A stretch of 32,336 bases of DNA, from positions 1-32,336 of the IMG/VR virus record IMGVR_UViG_3300022858_000140; one strand, written 5' to 3'. The stretch comes from a virus. Below the pieces are notes generated by a model that saw nothing but the letters and a program-made list of their open reading frames with translations, was not told where the DNA came from and ran no database searches. Of the stretch, positions 1,254 through 1,514 are shown piece after piece; the first letter of the stretch is position 1, and each line of letters starts with the position of its first letter. The position numbers and the translations under genes were made by a program.

Positions 1254-1461
1254 CCAGCGAGCAAAGGACTTCCACCCTCACACGGTACTTCTGGGTTGTC
1301 ATCTCTACCTTCGCTTAACCTAGGTCTACCCCTGCAGGCCGGTAGAGCCTAGACGTTGGTGAACGATGCTAACTAGCCGTTTTATGGGTCATAGTGACTT
1401 GAATTGGCTCCCCGTTGTGTACCTTATCTTATTAGCGTCTTTACGATTCCGCCATCGCTGG
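1254..1461 (-). ncRNA. Candidate structured RNA with tRNA-Leu-like ends (leader of replication operon)
   Basis: The 341 bases between the DnaD-like gene and SSB hold no convincing ORF but much secondary structure on the minus strand. A 7-bp perfect terminal helix joins 1455-1461 (CCAGCGA) with 1254-1260 (TCGCTGG). Directly stacked on it, 1308-1314 (GCGAAGG) pairs with 1261-1267 (CCTTTGC). Inside are a long hairpin at 1320-1352 (11 bp, one bulge), one at 1362-1381 (AACG...CGTT) and a small one at 1388-1398. After the 5' strand of the terminal helix comes TGGCGGAATCGTAAAGACGC, close to the D-arm of tRNA-Leu. Near the 3' end, GTGAGGGTGGAAGTCC resembles a T-arm. A promoter ends about 18 bp upstream. 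The RNA could be a free ncRNA or a cis-acting leader. No known class was recognised. Confidence 0.5.
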
Positions 1462-1485: not shown

Positions 1486-1514
1486 ATTATACCAACCCGT
1501 CGTTATCCCTGCAA
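1486..1514 (-). promoter_or_regulatory. Sigma70-type promoter for structured RNA and replication genes
   Basis: Reading the minus strand, a perfect -10 TATAAT (1486-1491) is preceded by TGG, giving an extended -10. It lies 17 bp from a weak -35, TTGCAG (1509-1514). The predicted start near 1479 lies about 18 nt before the terminal helix of the structured RNA. The spacer contains the block shared with the promoter at 3950-3978. Confidence 0.65.

Follow-up and report, generated by a model that had tools for sequence, protein, structure and literature searches.

A phage RNA family with a class II tRNA body, no anticodon arm and a fast-diverging variable arm

The closest described relative in form of the RNA reported here is tRNA-Leu (class II, RF00005), with which it shares an acceptor helix that abuts the T arm, a D arm of the type TGGCGGAA...GACGC, the residues U8, A14, A15, U48, U54 and A58, and a helix at the position of the variable arm. 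Unlike tRNA-Leu, the RNA has no anticodon arm and a variable arm of 30–220 nt; its T stem has 7 bp (in the subclass termed class A below) or 6 bp (in most of class C), in class A the 19-56 pair is swapped and residue 55 is G, the discriminator base varies, as a rule no CCA is encoded, and the acceptor helix often reaches 8–10 bp. Transfer-messenger RNA (tmRNA, RF00023) likewise joins tRNA-like ends to a long replacement of the anticodon arm, and the RNA sometimes adjoins a phage tmRNA gene, but it differs in having a true D stem and a Leu-type core and in lacking the conserved tmRNA sequences; identity with tmRNA was rejected, as no Rfam or ARAGORN tmRNA match was obtained and cores of 31–32 nt are too short for a tag frame and pseudoknots. 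The tRNA-like structures of plant viruses (TYMV type) and the yjdF riboswitch resemble it in rebuilding the tRNA elbow whilst altering the topology elsewhere (PMC4810234, PMC9142559); in contrast to them it is a stand-alone RNA of DNA phages, with an ordinary acceptor helix free of a pseudoknot and no link to yjdF genes or to the 3' ends of viral RNAs. GOLLD and ROOL are large phage RNAs of unknown function that are often found near tRNA genes; they are much larger, and neither a sequence match nor an Rfam match to them is seen at this RNA. Whilst tRNA mimics are already known, neither Rfam 15 nor the open literature searched (bioRxiv was not covered) was found to describe a class II tRNA that lacks the anticodon arm and has an enlarged variable arm.

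The window referred to throughout is the whole stretch of DNA analysed, 32,336 nt of a 32 kb viral contig whose genes lie on the minus strand. The RNA gene (208 nt, 1461 to 1254, minus strand, 5' end at 1461) is placed between the gene for SSB (1571–2023, minus) and that for a DnaD-like helicase loader (579–1229, minus). An earlier note, made from the sequence alone and leaving the strand unstated, had proposed a structured RNA with named elements at 1254–1461; all of these are present and are read on the minus strand, in the layout CCAGCGA-TG-GCG-GAATCGTAAAGA-CGC-(153 nt)-GTGAGGG-TGGAAGT-CCTTTGC-TCGCTGG. The features are as follows.

1254..1461, minus: whole tRNA-like RNA, 208 nt (match to covariance model R1; relatives found by pattern)
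1455..1461, minus: 5' strand of the acceptor helix, CCAGCGA, pairing with 1254–1260 (double changes in 7 of 7 pairs in class A)
1254..1260, minus: 3' strand of the acceptor helix, TCGCTGG (the same class A double changes)
1435..1454, minus: U8, G9 and the D arm, TG GCG GAATCGTAAAGA CGC (U8, A14, A15 and the D stem invariant in the class A alignment)
1424..1434, minus: 11-nt linker TAATAAGATAA where an anticodon arm would be (about 7–20 nt at the equivalent position in relatives)
1419..1423, minus: 5' strand of the P3 helix, GGTAC, in the expanded variable arm (a helix of at least 5 bp is enriched here in classes A and C)
1319..1352, minus: 11-bp hairpin with a palindromic loop (CCTGCAGG) in the variable domain (sequence and fold only)
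1284..1288, minus: 3' strand of the P3 helix, GTACC, stopping 2 nt (GU; U48) short of the T stem (the 2-nt offset is optimal in classes A and C)
1261..1281, minus: T-like arm GTGAGGG-TGGAAGT-CCTTTGC (in class A, double changes in 5 of 7 stem pairs, the other two invariant)
1486..1514, minus: sigma-70 promoter TTGCAG-N17-TATAAT with an extended -10 (TGG) (read directly from the sequence)

What had been claimed for individual elements held. The 7-bp end helix CCAGCGA/TCGCTGG is formed by 1461–1455 and 1260–1254, and the adjacent coaxial 7-bp helix is that of the T-like arm (1281–1261), which abuts the acceptor helix directly and closes a 7-nt loop, U54 G55 G56 A57 A58 G59 U60, that is nearly invariant in class A; the stem covaries in class A, and the proposed likeness of the 3' part to a T-arm holds. 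The likeness of the 5' part to the D arm of tRNA-Leu (TGGCGGAATCGTAAAGACGC at 1454–1435) was also confirmed, as was the absence of a normal anticodon arm, in place of which there is the 11-nt linker (given also as UAAUAAGAUAA) that, with the helix GGUAC/GUACC, is the counterpart of the linker and P3 of the relatives. The 11-bp internal hairpin (CUAGG-C-UCUACC / GGUAGA-CCUAG) is present near 1319–1352; no close homologue of the window core with this hairpin was found, and hence it has no support from covariation. The energy of folding of the minus strand (-60.8 kcal/mol against -56.9 +/- 4.2 kcal/mol for shuffled sequences, z -0.93), the z of the plus strand (-0.70) and the mean z of the family's cores (only -0.81) are unremarkable, and energy was therefore not used as evidence; the case rests on homologues, which are decisive.

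The extended -10 promoter that had been proposed also held, on the minus strand and upstream of the RNA: it reads TTGCAG-17-TGGTATAAT, with the -35 at 1514–1509 and the -10 at 1491–1486, and lies 25 bp from the RNA, the predicted transcription start being near 1479, about 18 nt before it. It was absent from the list produced by a scan for consensus promoters. A 10-bp dyad, GTTATCCCTG-N11-CAGGGATAAC, at 1502–1532 of the window overlaps the -35 and is a possible repressor site; its motif TAYCCCTGYAR recurs free of mismatches only in the RNA hairpin (1327–1337). No obvious terminator follows the RNA in the window, and the start of DnaD, which has no Shine-Dalgarno sequence, lies 24 nt beyond the RNA. 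Since SSB, an exonuclease and Sak4 lie upstream, the RNA heads DnaD and the next gene and not the whole replication operon; the claim that it heads this operon is also weakened by its relatives, which are found in many contexts without a common neighbour gene.

Searches by pattern, by covariance model and by BLAST brought together more than 60 relatives, from IMG/VR contigs, from prophages of Bacillota and from cultured phages that infect Lactobacillus and its relatives. The first lead came from BLAST against the full records of phages with a related terminase, which gave two short matches, correctly ordered and spaced, in one contig, and from it the search pattern TGGCGGAATC-N-AAAGACGC was built. 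In IMG/VR scans, every D-arm motif with an RTT spacer had downstream of it, no more than about 240 nt away, both GGNGGAAGT and the complement of the bases preceding the motif; the remaining D-arm pattern matches, without the downstream T loop and complement, are likely to be due to chance. A wider pattern scan revealed a second subclass with a canonical T loop (class B), covariance model R1, built from the first subclass (class A), revealed a third (class C), with the canonical GG in the D loop and a T loop of UGCAAAU or UUCGARU, and BLAST from class C led to cultured phages of lactic acid bacteria and relatives. Covariance models of different subclasses cross-match. The match of R1 to 1254–1461 is not independent, the window sequence being among its 14 member sequences, but relatives of the window RNA were found independently of R1, by pattern.

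Other searches delimit the family. No relatives were found with SSB as bait or, by sequence similarity, at 80 DnaD loci, two canonical-elbow relatives among which (L017 and L028) were found later by covariance model, and a covariance search of 396 Bacteroidota and 380 Patescibacteria genomes found none. Among 399 Bacillota genomes, R1 matched in 2 and a model R2 gave matches longer than 100 nt in 6, with prophage-like surroundings where these were inspected; the R2 matches of about 80 nt have the length of ordinary tRNA-Leu. The first exact D-arm pattern had given two matches in viral contigs, both within a tape-measure gene and judged to be chance, and the matches to the D-arm pattern in genome_contigs, at least 119, were also dismissed as chance, none having a T loop downstream. 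The Rfam and ARAGORN searches that had been suggested as a check revealed no family, tRNA or tmRNA in the window: 4227 Rfam models at gathering score gave no family for the RNA, relaxed thresholds gave only chance matches in or near it (PVX_3, RAGATH-27, sR5), and ARAGORN at default stringency, with introns on or off, made no tRNA or tmRNA call in the window, where calls appeared only at artificially low thresholds and are noise. The window and class A representatives do not match RF00005 at its gathering cut-off, and at 10 mainly class C loci only the neighbouring tRNAs do so; the Lbab1 copy is an exception, scoring 32.9 bits against a cut-off of 29.

The earlier note had named covariation among homologues as a further check, and an open reading frame conserved in the interval among relatives as grounds for refutation; homologues exist, covariation is seen in both the acceptor and the T stem of each subclass (A, B and C), and no reading frame is conserved in the interval. 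In class A, for which 18 distinct elbow sets were used, 98.4% of cells are paired against at most 48.1% with slid partners, and the covariation score is 0.773 against 0.218 for shuffled and at most 0.15 for slid partners. Double changes were seen in 12 pairs, comprising all acceptor pairs and five of the seven T-stem pairs. Caution is needed in that one site set had been filtered for pairing of the acceptor and T stems; the same pairing, imperfect in L157, is found in 11 RTT sites gathered earlier by motif alone. The D stem is invariant across class A, the tRNA core residues U8, A14, A15, U48 (which precedes the T stem), U54 and A58 are invariant or nearly so, and the RNA meets the criterion of a tRNA tertiary core and elbow (8-14, 15-48, 54-58 and 19-56).

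The link between D loop and T loop at 19-56, which was not imposed by the search filters, is C-G in class A and G-C in classes B and C. A D-loop C is accompanied by G56 in 19/19 members of class A; the D-loop base is G in 30/30 members of class B, of which 27 have C56 and the other three U or A; and class C has a D-loop G with C56. It is possible that this joint change reflects few evolutionary events. The T stem of class A is also two pairs longer, and its D loop 1–3 bases longer, than in class B, and U55 is replaced by G in class A and in most of class C. The 19-56 pair constitutes the flat face that RNase P, T-boxes and the ribosome recognize (PMC4810234), and we infer that a swapped pair could preserve this face, although this is no more than a possibility. 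The altered U55 and C56 of class A, with its swapped 19-56 pair, and the G55 of most of class C argue against recognition by enzymes that read those bases, and against mimicry directed at such enzymes.

Between the D stem and the variable region, the criterion for an anticodon arm (a 5-bp stem and 7-nt loop) is not met, the intervening linker being too short to hold one in most members. At the variable-arm position there is a fourth, covarying helix, P3; in classes A and C, which peak independently at the same offset, exactly 2 nt separate its end from the T stem. A P3 of at least 5 bp is found in 11/18 members of class A (1.6 expected) and 13/23 of class C (2.5 expected), and its mean length (4.9 and 4.8 bp, respectively) is about 7 sd above that in shuffled sequences (2.7 and 2.8 bp, sd 0.3); in class B the P3 signal is not clear. 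The variable arm carries a fast-diverging domain of 30 to 220 nt. The shortest members have a core of 31–32 nt, and in the minimal form, the Sha1 copy, 31 nt comprise the linker and one hairpin. The large cores of LP65 and Bacchae can be aligned and show 4 compensatory pairs against 0–1 with slid partners, albeit in two sequences only. No excess complementarity of cores to their own contig was detected that would indicate antisense pairing, and nothing in the variable core points directly to a target. One class B copy (L363, 1566–2140, plus strand) has an apparent insert of about 505 nt, perhaps including the start of a reading frame.

The settings in which the RNA is found are diverse. No neighbour protein is common to unrelated members, shared neighbour clusters being limited to near-identical contigs and to one group of antisense ORFs overlapping the RNA itself. 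Many members lie within phage tRNA arrays, many having tRNA genes on both flanks, whilst in temperate-type phages of Lactobacillus and relatives and of Brochothrix the RNA follows a regulator of the RinA/ArpU/DUF1492 type or another regulator and precedes HNH or terminase genes where these are annotated; a terminator-like T run lies downstream in three phages. Downstream of the RNA in IMG/VR contigs, the families met most often are those of the terminase large subunit (5 members with phrog_2 and 4 with phrog_38, counts that may overlap; 2 have phrog_2 upstream). The next ORF begins from about 16 to several hundred nt away. Cultured carriers include Lenus, Satyr, Maenad, LP65, Lbab1, Sha1, phiJL-1, LpeD and phages of Enterococcus and Brochothrix, and among the hosts are Lactiplantibacillus, Lacticaseibacillus, Latilactobacillus, Weissella, Enterococcus, Brochothrix and a Tenericutes bacterium. 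In the records of cultured phages the RNA is unannotated or merely grazed by another feature, except in Lbab1 (tRNA-Ser); only 7–15 tRNAs are reported for the Bacchae-group phages (PMC6669764). Over 3 kb, the only similarity between Lenus and Satyr is the RNA itself (108 bp, 99% identity); the RNA is thus transferred and maintained whole, together with its core.

Some phages carry two copies (L158, L363 and L331), in one case in tandem about 18 nt apart, a class B RNA being followed by one with a canonical elbow (L331, 2644–2892). In two unrelated phages the RNA has a phage-encoded tmRNA gene as its direct neighbour, about 10 nt away at most (L354, 9056–9521; L423, Enterococcus phage vB_Edu_21C1, 846–1300). 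A second, different tRNA-like sequence follows the RNA in Lenus (L409, 1606–1690; acceptor GCGGGA.., T arm CTGGTTCGACTCCAG) and is present also in LpeD (L412), LP65 (L415) and ATCC 8014-B2 (L416); it has a 5-bp stem and a loop of about 19 nt at the anticodon position, receives no ARAGORN call in Lenus, and is likely to be the pseudo 'tRNA-OTHER' of LP65. Satyr (L410) has, about 80 nt after the RNA, an uncalled tRNA-like sequence with a long insert (approximately 1700–1800; acceptor GTGGTTG/CAATCAC, T arm GTGTGGTTCGATTCCACAC). Phage tRNA arrays may thus contain several kinds of non-tRNA.

The interval therefore encodes a member of a widespread and hitherto unannotated phage RNA family, as shown by comparison: its fold is a class II (Leu-type) tRNA body that has lost the anticodon arm and whose variable arm is expanded, structured and fast-diverging, and the RNA is a selected, portable unit. 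The suggestion of a tRNA-derived non-coding RNA or new phage RNA class is supported by these comparative tests. What it does can only be inferred. It may be a cis-acting leader, in which the tRNA-like fold switches the translation or transcription of whichever gene follows (DnaD in the window, terminase or HNH genes in other phages). The proposed tRNA-like riboswitch yjdF is a precedent (PMC9142559), and the 6S RNA of phage lambda, a late-operon leader, offers another model. In favour of this are the promoter directly upstream and the position of DnaD, the location between RinA/ArpU-type activators and HNH/terminase genes in temperate phages, with terminators after some copies, and the prominence of the terminase large subunit downstream in IMG/VR contigs. 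However, the downstream gene is not conserved, as membership of such a class would demand, many members are flanked on both sides by tRNA genes, the distance to the next ORF varies and no conserved alternative pairing with an expression platform was seen. A cis role remains possible for the window, but without support from a general downstream gene.

Alternatively, the RNA might be a decoy or inhibitor that binds a nuclease or modifying toxin recognizing the tRNA body, belonging to a tRNA-targeting defence or toxin of the host. The tRNA body is conserved whilst the decoding part is missing, the arm diverges rapidly, and the RNA is frequent in phage tRNA arrays, which have been linked to evasion of tRNA-targeting defences (PMC10264068, PMC13096335); nevertheless we consider a decoy unlikely, since the RNA lacks the anticodon, which such nucleases usually target, class A has alterations in the elbow bases themselves, and the RNA is not accompanied by any defence or counter-defence gene. 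Less credible still is that these are degenerate or intron-bearing tRNA-Leu genes, either remnants of phage tRNAs or genes that regain a normal anticodon arm when an insert is spliced out. The D and T arms of canonical-elbow class C do resemble tRNA-Leu, and the Lbab1 copy is annotated as tRNA-Ser and passes the Rfam tRNA cut-off; but covariation means selection on the stems, the linker cannot form an anticodon arm, P3 is at a fixed place in unrelated phages, and 99% conservation is seen amid otherwise unrelated regions (Lenus/Satyr). The idea of a group I intron or an intron-bearing tRNA was rejected, as Rfam revealed no group I intron and ARAGORN with introns, at default stringency, found no such tRNA in the window. 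A packaging-related RNA or DNA site, such as a motor RNA or a folded element near cos or pac, is equally hard to sustain: terminase genes are near many members and the phiJL-1 copy is at the right genome end, but several members lie inside tRNA arrays far from terminase genes, some phages have two copies, and the carriers belong to different phage families.

The explanation we favour overall, though its chances fall slightly short of even, is that of a trans-acting RNA using the tRNA fold as a chassis; trans action, target and end-processing are inferred, with no expression data. On this explanation the RNA would be a separate molecule acting in trans. The tRNA body would provide compact ends that resist nucleases and are probably cut from the transcript by host RNase P together with a 3' tRNA nuclease, and the variable arm would be an effector that makes contact with a target in the host, the best candidates being a component of the tRNA/translation machinery or of a tRNA-centred defence, and that diverges under an arms race. 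Such an RNA could not decode. It is also probably not aminoacylated, because the position that follows the acceptor varies among members and the acceptor helix itself frequently extends beyond 7 bp; this evidence is indirect, and the absence of charging is inferred. The lack of a terminator in the window and the closeness of DnaD, without a Shine-Dalgarno sequence, also fit a cis role. A bolder reading, against which the balance tips slightly, is that this is a new class of trans-acting RNA, an anticodon-less class II tRNA chassis with a hypervariable arm, which targets the host translation or tRNA-defence machinery and has spread through phages of Bacillota and of uncultured hosts, one lineage having swapped the 19-56 pair and lengthened the T stem and D loop to keep the elbow.

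For the biology of these phages, the finding means that a common and experimentally reachable RNA has been overlooked by phage annotation. It bears on why phages carry tRNA arrays, some members of which may not be tRNAs, and the reciprocal 19-56 swap, with matched changes in the length of the T stem and D loop, provides a natural experiment on the tRNA elbow.
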